Virus record (IMG/VR): IMGVR_UViG_3300007076_000027
Span: 1 to 29,751 of that record
Length of the DNA stretch: 29,751 bases
From: a virus
Reading direction: 5' to 3' (one strand)
Shown here: positions 4,480 to 29,116 of the stretch, one piece after another
Numbering within the stretch: position 1 is the first letter of the stretch
Layout: every line of letters starts with the position of its first letter
The notes under the pieces: model-generated
Seen by the model: only the letters and a program-made list of their open reading frames with translations
Databases searched by the model: none
What the model was told of the DNA's origin: nothing
Program-made: the position numbers and the translations under genes

Positions 4480-4667
4480 GCCGCTACTACATCTCCGAGC
4501 TCAAAACCGCACTTGAACTGGTCGAGAAACGCATCTCCGAGTTGGAGGACAAGGCTTACGAAGGCGCCCATAGCCCGAGGTTCCTGGCCCGGGACAAGGA
4601 GGAGGCCAAGAAGCTCCTAGAGCGGCGGCGCGAGTTGCGCCACCAGATCATGTTTCACAAGCCATGA
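4476..4667 (+). CDS. Small coiled-coil protein (63 aa), GTG start
   Basis: The start is taken as the GTG at 4476, which overlaps the previous stop as GTGA; a frame extending upstream to 4413 lies within the resolvase gene and looks like a shadow. Apart from about five leading residues the protein is one long charged helix (ELKTALELVEKRISELEDK, then a break with a Gly-Ala-His-Ser turn, then a Lys/Glu/Arg-rich helix), which suggests a coiled coil or helical hairpin. Function unknown. Confidence 0.6.
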   Translation: MSRYYISELKTALELVEKRISELEDKAYEGAHSPRFLARDKEEAKKLLERRRELRHQIMFHKP

Positions 4668-4954
4668 AACCACCACGTAATCAGATGATGAGGCAGCGCG
4701 AACTGGCGGCCGATATGTGCAACGATGAACTTGACGCACTCACCCCAGAGAAAGCTACCGCGTTAATCAAGGTGTTGTTCGCGTCTGATGAATCCTGCCG
4801 AGTGATGGTCAGAACCTTGCTAGCCATCAACTGGAAGTGCTTCCAAGTCGACATGAAATCTCAATTTATGAACTTGGCGTTGGAGTTGGCCTACCAGTAC
4901 TTCGGAGATCGGGACTACCAGAAACGCAAGGCGAAGAAAAAAGGCAAAGCATGA
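4664..4954 (+). CDS. Hypothetical helical protein (96 aa)
   Basis: Four-base ATGA overlaps at both ends place this inside the early operon. It begins MKPPRNQMMRQRELAADM, has an all-helical middle with two Cys residues, and ends in a very basic tail (KRKAKKKGKA) that could contact nucleic acid. No family is recognised. Confidence 0.6.
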   Translation: MKPPRNQMMRQRELAADMCNDELDALTPEKATALIKVLFASDESCRVMVRTLLAINWKCFQVDMKSQFMNLALELAYQYFGDRDYQKRKAKKKGKA

Positions 4955-18111: not shown

Positions 18112-19332
18112 TTAGATTAGCAAGTCGCCGTAGAACCTGGGCTTCTCCTGCTTCACCGCGATCAAGTGTGCCGAGATGTAAGGCAGATCATCCCACATGC
18201 GAATATCCCGTAGCTTGAGCACTTGGTAGCGGCCTTTGAAATCCGGCACGAACTTCTTGTAGGCCCCCTCGGTGTAATAACGAAAGGATCGGTAATTCCA
18301 AAAGCTCACGTGCCCTGGATCGCAGAAACCTCCCTGCCCGTCGCTGCTCGGAACAAGTATGTCAAAAAGTCCGCCATGCGCCAGCACCCGGTACGCCTCG
18401 TTCATCGTGTGAACGTGGCTTCGCAAGTGTTCGATGGCGTCGTGCGCGCGAATAACTCCGACGCTGTTATCATCAAACGGCCAGCGTTCATCGAGATTCG
18501 CTGTCACATCGGCGTTGGCGATATCCACCGATTCGTAACCATCAGTAGGGTTGACGCCACCACAGATGTCGATACAGCGCAGGCCGCGGTCCTTCGCCCA
18601 CTTCAGCATCATCGGTTCGATATACTTGTCGTGGCACTCCCACATCGTCCTAGTGATGTCGTCCTGGTTCTTGAGCCAAGTGTTCCCACCATGGACGCGA
18701 TAGAGGTAGAGCGGCTGATCGACGTGGACCATGTTGGCCGTGAGATACGTGCGGCACATGAGGTCGTGGTCGTCGGTGATCTTCATCGTGGCATTGTGAC
18801 CGCCGACTTTCCAATAGGTGTCTGTGCGCCACGCGCGGAAATGGTTGGGTGCAAACCAAATTCTGGAGATGCTTTGAGGGAAAGGCTCGGCTGAAACAGC
18901 TTCAACATAGTCACCGCCTTCGTGCTGGAACTTTCGATACGTCCAGCCATAGCGCGAATCCCAGGAAATAGGCGTATTATTCCGGATGTCGTGGTTGACT
19001 GTATTAGAGTAGGCAAACCCTGTGGACGGATCCTGAAATGCTTTTGAGCATTGATCAAGGGCTCCAGGTAACAGAATATCATCGTGGTCTTGCTCCATTA
19101 GAATATCGCCGTGACTAAGTTCGCAGGCAACTCGCTTTAGGTATCCCACGTTTGGGATGCCTCTCGTGTCTCGCAACACCTGCACCCTTGGATCCGGGTT
19201 CTCGTAGTTTGACGCGCCATTATTCAGAAGCACAGTCCACTCGAAATCGGAGTGAGATTGGCTCTTGATCGAGTCCCACACCTGCGGCAGGAACGACGTG
19301 TCATGACTGGGAGTAAAGAGTGAGATCTTCAA
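18112..19332 (-). CDS. Family 2 glycosyltransferase fused to a SAM-dependent methyltransferase
   Basis: Taking the TTG at 19332 as start gives MKISLFTPSHD, the usual beginning of a GT-A family 2 enzyme, and removes a 41-base overlap with the upstream gene; an ATG at 19362 and a TTG at 19377 are alternatives. Residues 79-85 (MEQDHDD) are the DxD-like metal and nucleotide-sugar site, and ITDDHDLMCR (185-194) fits the catalytic-base region. From about 251 a class I methyltransferase begins: LRCIDICGG (motif I), VDIANAD, WPFDDNSVGVIRAHDAIEH and the motif AYRVLAHGGLF typical of the methyltransferase 11 group. It would transfer a sugar and methylate an acceptor or the sugar. The neighbouring collagen-like protein is a candidate substrate. 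Confidence 0.85.
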   Translation of the reverse strand: MKISLFTPSHDTSFLPQVWDSIKSQSHSDFEWTVLLNNGASNYENPDPRVQVLRDTRGIPNVGYLKRVACELSHGDILMEQDHDDILLPGALDQCSKAFQDPSTGFAYSNTVNHDIRNNTPISWDSRYGWTYRKFQHEGGDYVEAVSAEPFPQSISRIWFAPNHFRAWRTDTYWKVGGHNATMKITDDHDLMCRTYLTANMVHVDQPLYLYRVHGGNTWLKNQDDITRTMWECHDKYIEPMMLKWAKDRGLRCIDICGGVNPTDGYESVDIANADVTANLDERWPFDDNSVGVIRAHDAIEHLRSHVHTMNEAYRVLAHGGLFDILVPSSDGQGGFCDPGHVSFWNYRSFRYYTEGAYKKFVPDFKGRYQVLKLRDIRMWDDLPYISAHLIAVKQEKPRFYGDLLI

Positions 19333-19336
19333 TGGT

Positions 19337-19528
19337 TTAGCCCTGTGGACCACAGGCACCATCTGGGCCGCAGTCAAAGCATTCTCGTATTGACTTACAG
19401 ATTTGATTTACTTCGTCCGCCGTCATTGGAGGTTCCTCTGGTCCGACAAACTCTATCGTCAGGCATTGGCCACGGATTTCGAGTTCGACTTTGTGGGTGC
19501 AGTATGTGGTGGGTGTTTCTTTTTTCAT
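19337..19528 (-). CDS. Small acidic Cys-containing protein (63 aa)
   Basis: It begins MKKETPTTYCTHKVELEIRG, has a hydrophobic strand (CLTIEFVG), an acidic linker (PEEPPMTADEV), a helix and a Cys-rich tail (CFDCGPDGACGPQG). Five Cys in 63 residues suggest metal binding or disulfides. It ends 4 bases before the chosen TTG start of the glycosyltransferase and starts 3 bases after the stop of the collagen-like gene. Function unknown. Confidence 0.6.
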   Translation of the reverse strand: MKKETPTTYCTHKVELEIRGQCLTIEFVGPEEPPMTADEVNQICKSIRECFDCGPDGACGPQG

Positions 19529-19531
19529 AAA

Positions 19532-20767
19532 TCACGATATTCTAGTCAGCTTCATAAAGGAGTTGGCTTTCGCAAACCACCGTTGCACTGCTTGCACCCC
19601 CTTTGCTTGTACGCCGATAGTACAGTTCGAGTTTGGCGCAATCATTACCCCATCCAACACCACGCACTGAGCCCCTGCTGTTCTTTGTGTCGGCAGAACT
19701 CCGACACCTTGAGCGGTCTGGTAGTAAGATGAGTCTGACACGCCGGCTGTCTGAGGTCCGATAACTCTTCCAGCCACGGTAGATCCAACCACCGAACATT
19801 GCACGCCAACTTGAACACCTTGCACTCCAGCCGTTGGCTGGAGCGCAACGACTGCGTGGTATTCGTAAACTCCATTCGCCGCTAATGAAAGCAGATTCGA
19901 GAAAACGTCGCTCACAGTCGTTACCCCGAGATCGACTTGATTTCCTGCCCTGGTGTAGATCGTCCCCACATCTCCCTGTGGCCCCTGACCGCCTACAATT
20001 CCCTGCGTTCCTTGGACTCCTTGTGTGCCTTGAAAACCTTGCGTCCCTTGGTTGCCTTGATTGCCTTGCGTCCCTTGTGTGCCTTGGAAACCTTGCGTCC
20101 CTTGGAATCCTTGCGATCCCTGATTCCCCTGATTGCCCTGCGTGCCCTGTGTCCCTTGCGCCCCCTGTGTGCCCTGAAATCCTTGGCTACCCTGGTTTCC
20201 CTGGTTTCCTTGCGTGCCCTGGAATCCCTGATCGCCCTGATTTCCTTGAGGCCCACCGAACGCTCCCTGGTTTCCCTGGTTCCCTTGTGGGCCTGAGGCG
20301 CCACTTGATAAGGCTATGATATTGAAATTCGCATTCCGAATGGTGATCGTGGTTCCCGCTGCGTCCGTGCATTGTGCTCGAACCTCAACCGCGTCATTGA
20401 TAGCTAGCGAGAAAAGAACATCAACGACTATTTCGGTAAGATCAGTTCCGGGGATAGTGATCTCCATGACATCATTTGCCAAGAGATTGTTGTTCCTAAA
20501 AAACGCGAATTTGTAGCTGTGGCCGCTCGTCTGAGGCTGAATCGCGGCTGAGAATATTAACCGGAACTCCGCGGAGACGTTTGCCGTCATTTTCCCGGTT
20601 ACAGTATTCAGAGTCACCCCACTGCTGTCTCCGGCCACCCATGCTCCACCGAATGAGAAATACGCCGCTTGAAGTGTGAGCGTCAGGTTGCCCGTAAAAC
20701 GCATTTCACCATAGGCTCCTTTCAGAGCACCACCTGAAATCCCAGAGGATGCAAACTCGTGAATCAT
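19532..20767 (-). CDS. Collagen-like virion protein, Gly-X-Gln type (411 aa)
   Basis: Residues 1-155 form a strand-rich head. Residues about 156-268 are Gly-X-Y triplets dominated by Gln in third position (GFQGTQGNQGNQGSQG), with very little Pro and one break near residue 171 (AFGGPQG). A C-terminal globular domain of about 140 residues follows (from about residue 270). Collagen-like triplets in phages usually form trimeric stalks of tail or receptor-binding fibres, with the C-terminal domain nucleating the trimer. The low Pro content is unusual for a thermally stable triple helix; Gln in the Y position is tolerated in bacterial collagens. It overlaps the upstream gene by four bases. Confidence 0.8.
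   Translation of the reverse strand: MIHEFASSGISGGALKGAYGEMRFTGNLTLTLQAAYFSFGGAWVAGDSSGVTLNTVTGKMTANVSAEFRLIFSAAIQPQTSGHSYKFAFFRNNNLLANDVMEITIPGTDLTEIVVDVLFSLAINDAVEVRAQCTDAAGTTITIRNANFNIIALSSGASGPQGNQGNQGAFGGPQGNQGDQGFQGTQGNQGNQGSQGFQGTQGAQGTQGTQGNQGNQGSQGFQGTQGFQGTQGTQGNQGNQGTQGFQGTQGVQGTQGIVGGQGPQGDVGTIYTRAGNQVDLGVTTVSDVFSNLLSLAANGVYEYHAVVALQPTAGVQGVQVGVQCSVVGSTVAGRVIGPQTAGVSDSSYYQTAQGVGVLPTQRTAGAQCVVLDGVMIAPNSNCTIGVQAKGVQAVQRWFAKANSFMKLTRIS
19964..20302 (-). repeat. Triplet-coding DNA repeat within the collagen-like gene
   Basis: About 37 nine-base units encode the Gly-X-Gln stretch. On the plus strand they read as variants of CCTTGNGTNCCTTGGNNNCC; the units differ mostly at third codon positions, which is what selection for protein sequence with drifting synonymous sites gives. 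The region is recombination-prone and may vary in length between isolates. Confidence 0.75.
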
Positions 20768-26397: not shown

Positions 26398-27036
26398 CTA
26401 CGAGCGATTCTTTTTCGGTTCAACTTTCTTTTTACCGCAAGTTGCGTGACGATGATAAGAGGTTGCCCACTTTTCCACCAACCCAAGAACCATGTTTACT
26501 TGTTCCTCATGGTCAATTTGCATAGTGGGATTGGTTTCTGGAATTGGTGTGCCGTTGGTCATCTGTATAAGCAGCCGTTTTTGATAATCCTCGATAACTT
26601 TGGCCTGTTCTTTATACTCAGCCTTCAACGACAAGTACGCGTCCCGCAAACTCTTTACCGTTGTGAGTTTGTCGGATGCCTCCTGAATATCTGGGTAATT
26701 CTTAAACAGAGGTTGTTTGTCCTGCCGCCACGCGAGAATGGCATTCCTTAGCTTGATCCACTGAGTCCTCCCCTTTTCTTCATCGTCAGTCTTACACTCA
26801 GGCAGCATTGCGTGAACAAACTCGTGGCACCCCCTACAGAGGACCACTAGGTGCTTCTCGGTAGTCTCCCAAATCGATTCAGGATACCAGACATGATGAG
26901 CGTCATTAGAAATCGACTCGTCTCCACAAATCTGGCACTTAGCCTTCTCTCTTACCAAGGCTTCCAATCGGACACCCTTCCACTTTTCTGATTTTAGATA
27001 CCCAAACCGATATGCGTGCTTGCTCTCGATGCTCAT
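26398..27036 (-). CDS. HNH endonuclease family protein (212 aa)
   Basis: The N-terminal 80 residues carry a clear HNH fold: C34-x2-C37 (CQICG), H47-H48 in AHHVWYP, C67-x2-C70 and H71/H75 in HLVVLCRGCHEFVH. The zinc-binding CxxC pairs frame the catalytic His. The C-terminal 130 residues are a charged helix bundle (DAYLSLKAEYKEQAKVIED), probably for DNA binding or dimerisation. It may be a homing nuclease; alternatively HNH proteins in phages assist DNA packaging next to terminase, but no terminase is seen. It is divergent from the HTH gene. Confidence 0.8.
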   Translation of the reverse strand: MSIESKHAYRFGYLKSEKWKGVRLEALVREKAKCQICGDESISNDAHHVWYPESIWETTEKHLVVLCRGCHEFVHAMLPECKTDDEEKGRTQWIKLRNAILAWRQDKQPLFKNYPDIQEASDKLTTVKSLRDAYLSLKAEYKEQAKVIEDYQKRLLIQMTNGTPIPETNPTMQIDHEEQVNMVLGLVEKWATSYHRHATCGKKKVEPKKNRS

Positions 27037-27041
27037 TTAAC

Positions 27042-27075
27042 TTTACACTACGCAAGTTGCGAGTATAGTTCAAGT
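27042..27075 (+). promoter_or_regulatory. Sigma70-type promoter with internal palindrome, leaderless start
   Basis: TTTACA (27042-27047) and TATAGT (27064-27069) are separated by 16 bases. Between them lies a perfect palindrome CGCAA-G-TTGCG (27051-27061), an apt operator position. The ATG of the HTH gene follows only 6 bases after the -10 box, where transcription itself would begin, so the messenger probably lacks a leader. The same interval also lies before the leftward HNH gene. Confidence 0.6.
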
Positions 27076-27246
27076 ATGAAATTCAAAACTGAATTGAAAA
27101 AGTGGAGAAGATCGAAACGTTTTCTTCAAAAGCAGGCCGCAGAGTTCTTAGAGGTGAATATCCGCACTTACGAAGGATGGGAGACCGGCCACAGTGTGCC
27201 GCACGCATTATCCATTTCCGAAATCAAGAGGCGCATGGCGCAATAA
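27076..27246 (+). CDS. Small HTH (XRE-like) regulator (56 aa)
   Basis: The helix-turn-helix is read at residues about 17-38: LQKQAAEFLEVNIRTYEGWETG, matching the usual Xre/Cro layout Q-xx-A-xx-L-x-V-xx-(R)-TYxxWExG. The protein is basic and short, with a C-terminal helix (EIKRRMAQ). The ATG at 27076 is chosen over an upstream frame start at 27016 because it follows the promoter directly; no ribosome binding site exists. The palindrome in its own promoter suggests autoregulation. It may also act at the control region at 778-997, though the half-sites differ. Confidence 0.75.
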   Translation: MKFKTELKKWRRSKRFLQKQAAEFLEVNIRTYEGWETGHSVPHALSISEIKRRMAQ

Positions 27247-27261
27247 AAGAAAGAACAACAC

Positions 27262-27423
27262 ATGAAAACCAGTCCTAAAAAGTCACCAATCAAATGTCCT
27301 ATATGCGGTCGAAAGTTCGTAGACCAAAAGAAATTTGGAGAGCACGTAGATCGCCACATCATGAAGGAGCTTTTCGCCCACGTGGATGCATTTCCCGACG
27401 AAGCAAAAGGTTTCCCCGCCTAA
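27262..27423 (+). CDS. C2H2 zinc-finger mini-protein (53 aa)
   Basis: This frame is too short for common cut-offs but has a canonical finger: C12-x2-C15-x12-H28-x3-H32 (CPICGRKFVDQKKFGEHVDRH with F19 and F25 in the usual hydrophobic slots). Residues 1-11 are Lys/Ser/Pro-rich. The ATG follows the HTH gene by 15 bases with a weak AAAGAAAG, so the two are probably cotranscribed. C2H2 fingers in bacteria are mostly of the Ros/MucR class, with different spacing; the x12-x3 spacing here is the classical eukaryote-like one. It probably binds DNA or RNA. Confidence 0.7.
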   Translation: MKTSPKKSPIKCPICGRKFVDQKKFGEHVDRHIMKELFAHVDAFPDEAKGFPA

Positions 27424-27470: not shown

Positions 27471-27741
27471 ACCAATCCTAAACTTCTACGAAGTGATCTG
27501 AGTATCGCTGAAAAGTTCAGGAAATCAACTTGCCTTCCATTCTGATTAAGGTCAATATGGCACCAGTCCGTTGTAGCCGGATGAAGTTAAACCAAACATT
27601 TTGCACTCGTTCGTTGTCGGCAACGCCTCCCGGCGTTGGCTACACCGCGGCGGGCGGGTGCTTGCCCAAATCACGGCGAGCTTCGAAGCGGCAGGATCGG
27701 CTTTGCTTAGGCGCGGCGTGCTGGGGCGTGGAAAGGTCACA
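27471..27741 (+). other. Structured leader ahead of the 209-residue protein gene
   Basis: No convincing reading frame fills these 271 bases. CGTTG (27612-27616) can pair with CAACG (27621-27625), and CAACGCC (27621-27627) can instead pair with GGCGTTG (27632-27638), so two hairpins exclude each other. Further short stems (GGGC with GCCC around 27652-27666; GCTTCGAAGC at 27680-27689) follow. Exclusive hairpins of this kind are usual in attenuators and translation switches. A promoter presumably lies upstream near 27500-27600, but I see no clear pair of boxes. Confidence 0.4.
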
Positions 27742-28371
27742 ATGAAGGCAGTATCAAGACAGACGGAAATTGGAGGGGAATCGCCAACTAATGGAGCTAA
27801 AGAACTGGTAGAAATGGAGATACCGTACATAGCAGAGGTTACGATCGAAGGAAGTGCGGATCTCCTGTTTCATCGGTGGAATTGCGAGGCGGTAGAAGAA
27901 AAGAGCAAGGCCAAGAAGGGCAGTGCTGCGAAAAAGTCCGACGACATCGAGAGCTACGTTTACCGTAACGAGAAAGGTGAATTGGCCATCCCGGGAGAGT
28001 ACCTACGCATGAGCCTGATCGCCGCCGCGAAGTTTCGTCAGGATCCGCGCAGTCCTAGAAAATCGGCGGCCGACTTGTTCAAAGCTGCCGTGGTGTCGAT
28101 CACTAACTTGGCATCACTTGGAGTTAAAAAATGGGACTACGAGGACAAACGCAGGGTGTGCATCCAGCGTAATGCCATCACAAGAACTCGGCCAGCGGTC
28201 AAAGCTGGCTGGACGGCGACAATCCAGCTTCAAGTGAACTTGCCGGAGTACGTCTCTCCCACACTGTTAAACGAGGTCATCGGGCAGGCTGGTAAGCTGA
28301 TTGGCGTTGGTGATTTTCGTCCAACGTTTGGAAGATTTCAGGTCGTGAAGTTTGAAATTCTCGATCTGTAA
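27742..28371 (+). CDS. Conserved phage-type protein of unknown function, upstream of the pentamer array (209 aa)
   Basis: The start ATG at 27742 is preceded by GGAAAGGT at a good distance. The frame begins MKAVSRQTEIGGESPTNGAK, then a folded part from about residue 28 (PYIAEVTIEGSADLLFHRWN), a Lys-rich loop, IPGEYLRMSLIAAAKFRQDP, WDYEDKRRVCIQRNAI and the C-terminal segment GVGDFRPTFGRFQVVKFEIL. From memory this family (with the LLFHRW and GDFRPTFGRF segments) is found in phages and bacteria without a known role. The alternating strands and Gly-rich C-terminal loop bring RNA-binding RAMP/ferredoxin-like proteins to mind, which is only a suggestion. The TAA is followed within 2 bases by the array. 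Confidence 0.65.
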   Translation: MKAVSRQTEIGGESPTNGAKELVEMEIPYIAEVTIEGSADLLFHRWNCEAVEEKSKAKKGSAAKKSDDIESYVYRNEKGELAIPGEYLRMSLIAAAKFRQDPRSPRKSAADLFKAAVVSITNLASLGVKKWDYEDKRRVCIQRNAITRTRPAVKAGWTATIQLQVNLPEYVSPTLLNEVIGQAGKLIGVGDFRPTFGRFQVVKFEILDL

Positions 28372-28372
28372 C

Positions 28373-28785
28373 ATGGCCTGGCTCGTAAAGCCAGGGTACT
28401 CTGTGGCATGGAGGGTTCAGGTGTGCTCGGTCTTGGTAGGACGCTGTGCGGCGGGTAGAGTCTTGGTTCGCTAAGCTCCGGTCCGGTTATGTGGGGCGCG
28501 GTGCGGTATGGTTCGGGCCGAAAGGCCGGTTAGGCAGTCTATGATTGGGAAAGGCAGGCTCGGGCAAGGAGTAGTCGGGTGCGCAATGTTGTGCTTGGGT
28601 ACTCTCAGGCACGGTTTGGTCAGGTCTGGTTGTGAAGGGTTAGGATAGGCACGGTCTGCTCGGGTTAGTTTCGGAAAGGTTCGCTAAGGCGTGGTCGGGT
28701 AGGGTTAGGTCCGGACTAATTGAGTTCGCCTTGGTGGTCTAGGGTTCGGTCGGTAACGGTAGGGCACGTTTGGGACCGCTGTGGT
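28373..28785 (+). repeat. Degenerate pentanucleotide array, consensus NNGGT, two phase blocks
   Basis: The stretch is noncoding and can be cut into contiguous 5-base units. Block 1 (28373-28527) holds 31 units and block 2 (28526-28785) 52 units, out of phase with each other by 2 bases at 28526-28527. In units written N1 N2 N3 N4 N5, my hand count gives N3 = G in 73 of 83, N5 = T in 51 of 83, N5 = G only once, and N4 mostly G; N1 and N2 vary freely. Examples in a row: ACGGT TTGGT CAGGT CTGGT. GG pairs recur every 5 bases, so the RNA or the plus DNA strand could form two-layer G-quadruplexes. Stops occur in every frame. Confidence 0.85.
28377..28395 (+). other. Hairpin at the 5' end of the pentamer array
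   Basis: CCTGGCT (28377-28383) pairs perfectly with AGCCAGG (28389-28395) around the 5-base loop CGTAA. It starts 5 bases after the stop codon of the 209-residue gene. No T tract follows, so it is not an intrinsic terminator; it may cap or mark the start of the array RNA. Confidence 0.55.
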
Positions 28786-28824
28786 TTTGGCGGTGATTGA
28801 GTTAACTCTCGATCACCGCCAAAA
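28785..28824. other. 13-base perfect inverted repeat closing the pentamer array
   Basis: TTTTGGCGGTGAT (28785-28797) is the exact reverse complement of ATCACCGCCAAAA (28812-28824); the 14-base spacer contains its own palindrome GAGTTAACTC (28799-28808). The right arm codes the last residues of the GroES-like protein on the minus strand, so the left arm looks like an inverted copy of that gene end. It may act as a transcription stop for both directions although it lacks a classical T tract after the stem. Confidence 0.65.
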
Positions 28825-29116
28825 TGCTTTCTACATCCACGAGGCGCAATCGATCTCCGAGTCTATCCTCCAACCTGACACCTCCGTAAACGGTAGCGAT
28901 CACCTCGTCTCCTACTTTTATATGAGGCATAACCGAATGCCCACTTTTCACCGTTCTCCAAGGACCGATCTCTTTTACGAGACCTCGAATCGGTTTGACC
29001 TTTTCTCCACGGGGTGTGTCATTGGCAACGTCAGGAATCCATAATCCTGAATCGGTTTTATCAGATGGCGGAAGCTGTTGGATTAAGGCTTTTCCCTTCA
29101 ACGGTTTGATTCGCAT
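28802..29116 (-). CDS. GroES-like co-chaperonin (104 aa)
   Basis: The protein follows the cpn10 layout: start MRIKPLKGKALIQQL, a mobile-loop region at about 18-36 (TDSGLWIPDVANDTPRGEK, with SGLWIP in the place of GGIVL), RGLVKEIGPW, then IKVGDEVIA and the C-terminal VDVESILAVIE, all as in GroES. GroES caps the GroEL chamber; phages such as T4 encode their own co-chaperonin to fold capsid proteins. A role in folding this phage's capsid is a fair inference. The region VMPHIKVGDEVIATVYGG is slightly longer than usual. It overlaps the upstream gene by 56 bases and has AGGG before the ATG. Confidence 0.8.
   Translation of the reverse strand: MRIKPLKGKALIQQLPPSDKTDSGLWIPDVANDTPRGEKVKPIRGLVKEIGPWRTVKSGHSVMPHIKVGDEVIATVYGGVRLEDRLGDRLRLVDVESILAVIES

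Follow-up and report, generated by a model that had tools for sequence, protein, structure and literature searches.

The array of five-base units at positions 28373-28785 of the window, the 29,751-nucleotide stretch of viral DNA analyzed here, is very probably a bank of guide RNAs (vrRNAs) belonging to a VIPR system that the phage encodes. The window contains a VIPR vrRNA array together with its vipr gene; the kind is already known, and this array is unusually long and nearly continuous. The identification is supported by the homology of the adjoining protein, the array itself, its recurrence beside homologues of that protein, its strand, the covariation of its hairpins and the code found in its clade, in which one nucleotide is skipped. 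VIPR combines a RAMP protein, Vipr, with vrRNAs made of alternating GGY and NN (PMC13142463, a preprint of April/June 2026). The NN pairs recognize double-stranded DNA, passing over one target base from each pair to the next, the effect is transcriptional silencing, and the natural targets are rival phages and satellites (PMC13142463). The same preprint describes VIPR as a relative, and possibly the forerunner or ancestor, of CRISPR, and it distinguishes seven types and several array architectures. A literature search for further VIPR papers beyond PMC13142463 found none. The first report of VIPR dates only from April 2026, and the window, itself a virus record (G000) in keeping with the phage-encoded nature of VIPR, shows such a system in environmental phages.

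The array and the adjoining Vipr protein

A preliminary description, made from the nucleotide sequence, had reported a strict five-base periodicity in noncoding DNA. The periodicity is real: the lag-5 self-match of 28373-28785 was 0.395, compared with 0.288 ± 0.021 (maximum 0.360) in 2000 dinucleotide shuffles, and further peaks of 0.41-0.43 were found at lags 10, 15, 20 and 25. The period-5 composition score was 13 SD above shuffles and, among periods 2 to 15, only 5 and its multiples stood out. A five-state NNGGY model allowing phase jumps, with parameters set by hand on the window, gave 192 bits over 28375-28785, while the best of 300 shuffles reached 50. The earlier proposal of a core under selection, with free positions between, was right. 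The model recognized 82 complete in-phase units on the + strand, 30 in a first block (28375-28525) and 52 in a second (28526-28785), with a single phase slip at a hairpin located at about 28513-28530. The first core base is G in 72 of the 82 units, the second in 54 (66%), and the third is T, C, A or G in 51, 17, 13 and 1; both N positions vary freely, and about half of the units are imperfect in GGY. A previous count made by hand (G in 73 of 83 units at the third position of the unit; at the fifth, T in 51 units and G in a single one) agrees with this phase. The array is much as first described, with three amendments, namely the phase slip, the looser second G and an additional array upstream of the gene. 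The latter, located at 27675-27737 (+), is weaker (12 units, 29 bits in the array model) and lies directly 5′ of the vipr start codon, so close that it runs into the ribosome-binding site with its final units. Arrays were found at the corresponding place before vipr in L015, L016, L017, L019, L021, L023 and other related loci.

Several known kinds of element were tried and rejected. Stop codons occur in every frame of 28373-28785, so the interval is noncoding, as had been claimed. A tandem repeat finder reported nothing at the array, in agreement with the earlier argument against slippage, and a microsatellite was discarded on the same result. Neither the window, its array region included, nor 15 related loci had a match in Rfam to a known structured RNA, and no DNA-level similarity of the array to phages was found. 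A CRISPR array, with identical repeats of 20-40 nt, unique spacers and cas genes, was also rejected: there is no repeat array of that form and the adjacent open reading frames are not cas genes. The preliminary statement that the array matches no known pattern has been superseded, the pattern being that of VIPR vrRNAs (PMC13142463).

The open reading frame at 27742-28371 (+) encodes 209 amino acids. A search with this single sequence found PDB entry 36pp, "SUSP1 Vipr protein", with E=6.5e-4. A profile of 13 homologues aligned with chain D of 36pp over residues 5-188 of 202, including the G-loop, with E=1.1e-11, and the protein also matches phrog_4652 (E=1e-17). Its glycine-rich loop is given by LIGVGDFRPTFGRF, and the G-loop sequence GVGDFRPTFGRF aligns with GVGDWRPRFGRF of SUSP1; a thumb-like stretch, KxxQDPRSxRKSAxD, and the glycine-rich loop, GxGDFRPTYGRF, are conserved in the homologues. 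An AlphaFold (AF2) model of medium confidence (pLDDT 70) was compared by Foldseek with a structure library dated to 8 April 2026, which may predate 36pp. The best matches were type VII Cas7 and Csm3 (E 1.5e-4, probability 1.00, TM only 0.39-0.51), and all fold matches were of the Cas7/Csm3 type. Going by the sequence comparisons and the predicted structure, the 209-amino-acid protein is Vipr, a RAMP protein with the RRM-like core, the glycine-rich loop and a putative thumb of that family and with a Cas7-like predicted fold, and because it adjoins the array, we read the latter as a VIPR vrRNA array.

Recurrence beside vipr and the guide code

A search for relatives of the protein confirmed 314 in viral contigs, of which 80 were kept, and 30 in GTDB (84,980 species genomes), mostly in Phycisphaerae MAGs but also in Stenomitos, Thermomonas, Alicyclobacillus and others. 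GGY/NN arrays lie directly before vipr, directly after it or both in nearly all of 118 vipr loci drawn from the two sources, with only a few exceptions. The preliminary description had tied the array to the adjacent protein and had proposed checking the homologues for the same periodicity; this recurrence confirmed the tie. In 2.1 Mb of tiled related contigs the model found 88 arrays that scored 40 bits or more, 79 of them at most 1.5 kb from vipr; at least two of the remaining nine are neighbours split by tile borders. On the strand of vipr lie 77 of those 79 arrays, and the earlier suggestion of a noncoding RNA read from the + strand is probably right. As a positive control, the model as set on the window was run on phage SUSP1 and returned exactly four vrRNAs, of which one precedes vipr and three follow it, as in PMC13142463. 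A few arrays on the strand opposite to vipr were also seen, at 3305-3386 of L076 and at 4530-4605 and 2951-3016 of L012 (all −).

These observations bear on whether the element acts as DNA, that is, as a G-quadruplex tract, an origin or a packaging signal. One strand is G-rich and has GG every five bases, as such an element could require, but the near-constant orientation on the coding strand of vipr, the presence of arrays beside vipr in unrelated phages and in bacterial genomes, and hairpins with covarying stems and GAAA or UUCG tetraloops typical of RNA leave this reading with next to no probability. The G-quadruplex, the origin or packaging signal and the DNA-binding lattice, all put forward earlier, found no support, and neither did the sponge, considered below.

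VIPR systems typically, though not always, include a vipr-accessory (vap) gene. No neighbour gene is conserved across the subclade of the window, where a vap candidate was sought. By type only, a 53-amino-acid C2H2 zinc-finger open reading frame at 27262 and an HTH open reading frame at about 27016-27246 are candidates in the window. Among the relatives, L092-L099 and L035-L056 form a family of elements, integrated or phage-like, in Phycisphaerae MAGs, with DUF669, vipr, RusA-like and DEAD-helicase genes; each has three GGY/NN arrays, and members target one another's DUF669 and helicase genes.

To read the code, the arrays were reduced to their strings of NN pairs, which were sought elsewhere among the loci by skipping 0, 1 or 2 target bases between pairs and by reversing their order; the calculation used no data from PMC13142463. 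A skip of 3 reads the array itself and is uninformative. In 1.05 Mb, matches scoring at least 16 numbered 147 with a skip of 1, and 1, 2 and 1 with a skip of 0, a skip of 2 and the reversed order, respectively. In 3.15 Mb, 45 distinct guide-target pairs with a skip of 1 scored at least 18, a score of net matches worth at least nine units, and none did under the other three rules. With lenient mismatch scoring, pairs of at least 19 numbered 99 for a skip of 1, and 0, 2 and 1 for the others in the same order. These results show that the NN pairs are the information-bearing part and that the code with one nucleotide skipped holds for the protein clade of the window. The test thus reproduces the code independently, over 118 loci, in a clade distant from the E. 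coli phage system.

The preliminary description was right that the NN positions vary freely, but it had placed the function in the GG(T) core, and the pairs that match genes of rival phages are those between the cores. On that account the array would be a protein-binding sponge or a structural lattice in which GGY matters and NN is filler. The core is indeed conserved with NN free, and a gene for an RNA-binding protein adjoins the array. The reading is nevertheless contradicted for the clade, where NN strings match rival genes under one spacing rule alone, and two loci, L047 and L056, differ by entire NN strings within near-identical DNA; for the window it is very improbable.

The targets of the guides of this clade are now indicated. 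Those that could be named are rival vipr, DUF669, DEAD helicase, ParB-N6 methylase, HARE-HTH and PD-(D/E)XK nuclease genes. Rival vipr is targeted at KKTDDVES by a guide of L026 and at RTRPAxKAGW by a guide of L027, and the helicase at its Walker A motif, VIPTGGGKTP. Within these genes it is the third base of the codon that is skipped. That position was read only from genes identified by Pfam or as vipr; reading it from the longest open reading frame is unreliable because GC-rich DNA has spurious antisense frames. The vipr gene of the window has a site at 28183-28211 (+) that matches a vrRNA of a rival (L027, 3132-3178) in 19 of 20 NN bases, again with the skip at the codon third position. When all guides were compared leniently with only the phage of the window, one match of 22 that looks like chance arose in the skip-2 control, and single lenient matches were therefore not taken as evidence.

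For the guides of the window itself, no convincing target was found in the 3.15 Mb of related contigs, where matches were at chance level. Four exact scans of IMG/VR with eight units returned 11, 34, 5 and 28 stretches, whose flanking units match at about chance. Two sets of candidates were set aside: L256/L252 match 11 of 12 units with the skip off the wobble base, and L283 matches nine units in antisense, consistent with the wobble position, with some probability of arising by chance. An exploratory measure of the codon-likeness of the NN pairs hints at antisense targets for the units that precede each hairpin (best 12-unit stretch about 3 SD over the average). A search of IMG/VR for relatives of the phage by its two large proteins found none except one near-identical contig, so the rivals of this phage may simply be unsampled.

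By analogy with the preprint (PMC13142463), RNP assembly and gene silencing would proceed in the window system as follows. The Cas7-like protein encoded by vipr would coat the array RNA, each subunit holding one NNGGY unit with GGY gripped and the NN pair free. Successive NN pairs would then base-pair with double-stranded DNA, one target base being skipped, usually at the third position of a codon, and the loaded complex would silence genes in phages or mobile elements that compete with this one. Most likely the 82 units comprise several guides, each of about 11-16 units, that follow directly on one another, with short tetraloop hairpins between some of them.

Hairpins and the architecture of the array

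The array of the window opens with a hairpin of 7 bp at 28377-28395 (the fold of 28373-28400 has z=-3.4) and closes with a terminal hairpin of 17 bp at 28785-28824, an inverted repeat with 94% complementarity (fold z=-5.8) that would form the 3′ end of the last vrRNA; the hairpins of the window's array are all on the + strand. Many of the arrays in relatives also end in a hairpin. Between the two blocks, at about 28510-28530, where the phase shifts, lies an internal hairpin, GGTTCG-GGCC-GAAA-GGCC-GGT. RNAfold, applied to 46 nt around it, prefers another fold, and the support for the internal hairpin is for this reason comparative. In the subclade the element has a common form: GGY NN CG, a stem of 4-7 bp beginning with GG, a tetraloop that is mostly GAAA and also UUCG, the other arm of the stem, and GGY. 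It was found 23 times in 8.2 kb of subclade array and 45 times in 426 kb outside, a rate at which about one would be expected in the arrays. The 23 hairpins have ten distinct stems, the third pair being C-G, A-U, G-C or U-A. This covariation indicates that the array acts as RNA of the + strand.

How many guides an array holds can be seen in relatives. In L018 hairpins recur every 75 nt or so, which corresponds to about 12 units per vrRNA. In an uninterrupted run of 23 units in L101 (6717-6828), units 2-12 match a ParB-methylase gene and units 12-22 a HARE-HTH gene. The sequence here gives direct evidence of several guides within one array; we infer that each of the blocks of 30 and 52 units in the window does so too.

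The turnover of guides is illustrated by L047 and L056, whose vipr genes are 99% identical and whose flanking genes and downstream arrays are near-identical. Their upstream arrays (4797-4922 and 4834-4945, respectively) share about 66%, roughly the level expected from the fixed GGY core by itself. Since the flanks are about 99% identical and the upstream NN strings differ completely, whole guides are replaced at once, which may point to recombination or to a route of guide acquisition. The one near-identical contig (G001/L002) matches the window without a difference over the whole overlap and is uninformative in this respect.

Taken together, these features may define an architecture distinct from the described types, a possibility that we put forward tentatively: one long transcript would carry several guides of 11-16 units, end to end or overlapping by one unit, the small covarying tetraloop hairpins would mark where it is cut or bounded, and whole guide strings would be replaced at once between near-identical relatives. 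The long continuous arrays, the tetraloop hairpins and the wholesale exchange of guides are candidate variant features. They raise the question of how guides are excised from an unbroken array of this length and how the exchange of entire guides takes place.

Compared with the described vrRNAs of 9-16 units, the array is looser and far longer, and it lacks the pseudoknotted tail of type II; it could therefore be decayed in part. In the strong form of this alternative, the phage retains vipr, drift has affected most of the 82 units, and those near hairpins or near the gene are the only ones still acting. The second core G at just 66%, the imperfection of half of the units and the failure of the window's guides to find a target in the 3.15 Mb of contigs and the IMG/VR scans are in its favor. 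So is the distribution of good units in the subclade, where the nearest two units to either side of a hairpin have a perfect or almost perfect GGY, compared with about 40% perfect elsewhere. Against this, the whole subclade is equally loose (54% perfect units) yet keeps long, nearly continuous arrays, mostly of 42-137 units. In addition, L026 and L027, whose proteins are 67-68% identical to the Vipr of the window, have guides with clear targets in the skip-1 test, and the last core base is G in only one of 82 units, which drift would not produce. Extensive decay is thus rather unlikely, and a working bank of guides is the preferred reading. As a whole, the first interpretation of the array was supported in part.

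Comparison with known systems and other features of the phage

The closest described system is the type II VIPR of Escherichia phage SUSP1 (PMC13142463), with which the window shares a homologous Vipr (the 1.1e-11 profile match), a phage location, GGY/NN units that flank the gene on both sides and follow its strand and, for the clade of the window, the code with one nucleotide skipped. Type II vrRNAs, known from SUSP1 and P. fulva, have 9-16 repeats and an invariable structured 3′ tail, with a pseudoknot in the SUSP1 clade (PMC13142463). The four vrRNAs of SUSP1 stand apart, at about 13-16 units apiece, and a long conserved tail follows each; the 82 units of the window run on almost without a break, with a single short tetraloop hairpin, less strict conservation of the second G and no accessory gene that is conserved beside them. 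The window does not have the type II form, its blocks of 30 and 52 units having short GNRA and terminal hairpins only. Hammerhead ribozymes, which lie between the vrRNAs in some VIPR arrays, were not found by Rfam in the window or in the 15 related loci. Some VIPR types are described in PMC13142463 as having "staggered arrays with overlapping vrRNAs". Judged by that description, overlapping vrRNAs would fit long arrays with multiple guides such as that of L101.

The likeness to Class 1 CRISPR-Cas systems (Cas7/Csm3 with crRNA) lies in the Cas7-like fold, in an RNA held by repeated subunits and in the use of a guide RNA against foreign DNA. The window differs in having no CRISPR repeats, spacers or cas operon, in a unit of 5 nt compared with 6 nt in CRISPR, and in guide information that is split into dinucleotides.

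Since the 645- and 766-amino-acid proteins of the phage matched no PHROG or Pfam family over the cut-off, the phage is an orphan lineage. Other features were observed along the genome. An open reading frame at 18112-19377 (−) has glycosyltransferase-2-like and methyltransferase matches in one frame, and another at 19532-20767 (−) includes, at 20004-20285, repeats of period 9, 18 and 27 that form a collagen-like stretch of a tail-fibre protein (phrog_819, phrog_1806). A GroES-like co-chaperonin (Pfam Cpn10, E=7e-13) is encoded at 28802-29116 (−), convergent with the array. Beyond the end of the window, contig G001 continues with genes for N6/N4 and C5 DNA methylases and a radical-SAM-like protein (L120, 2296-15543).
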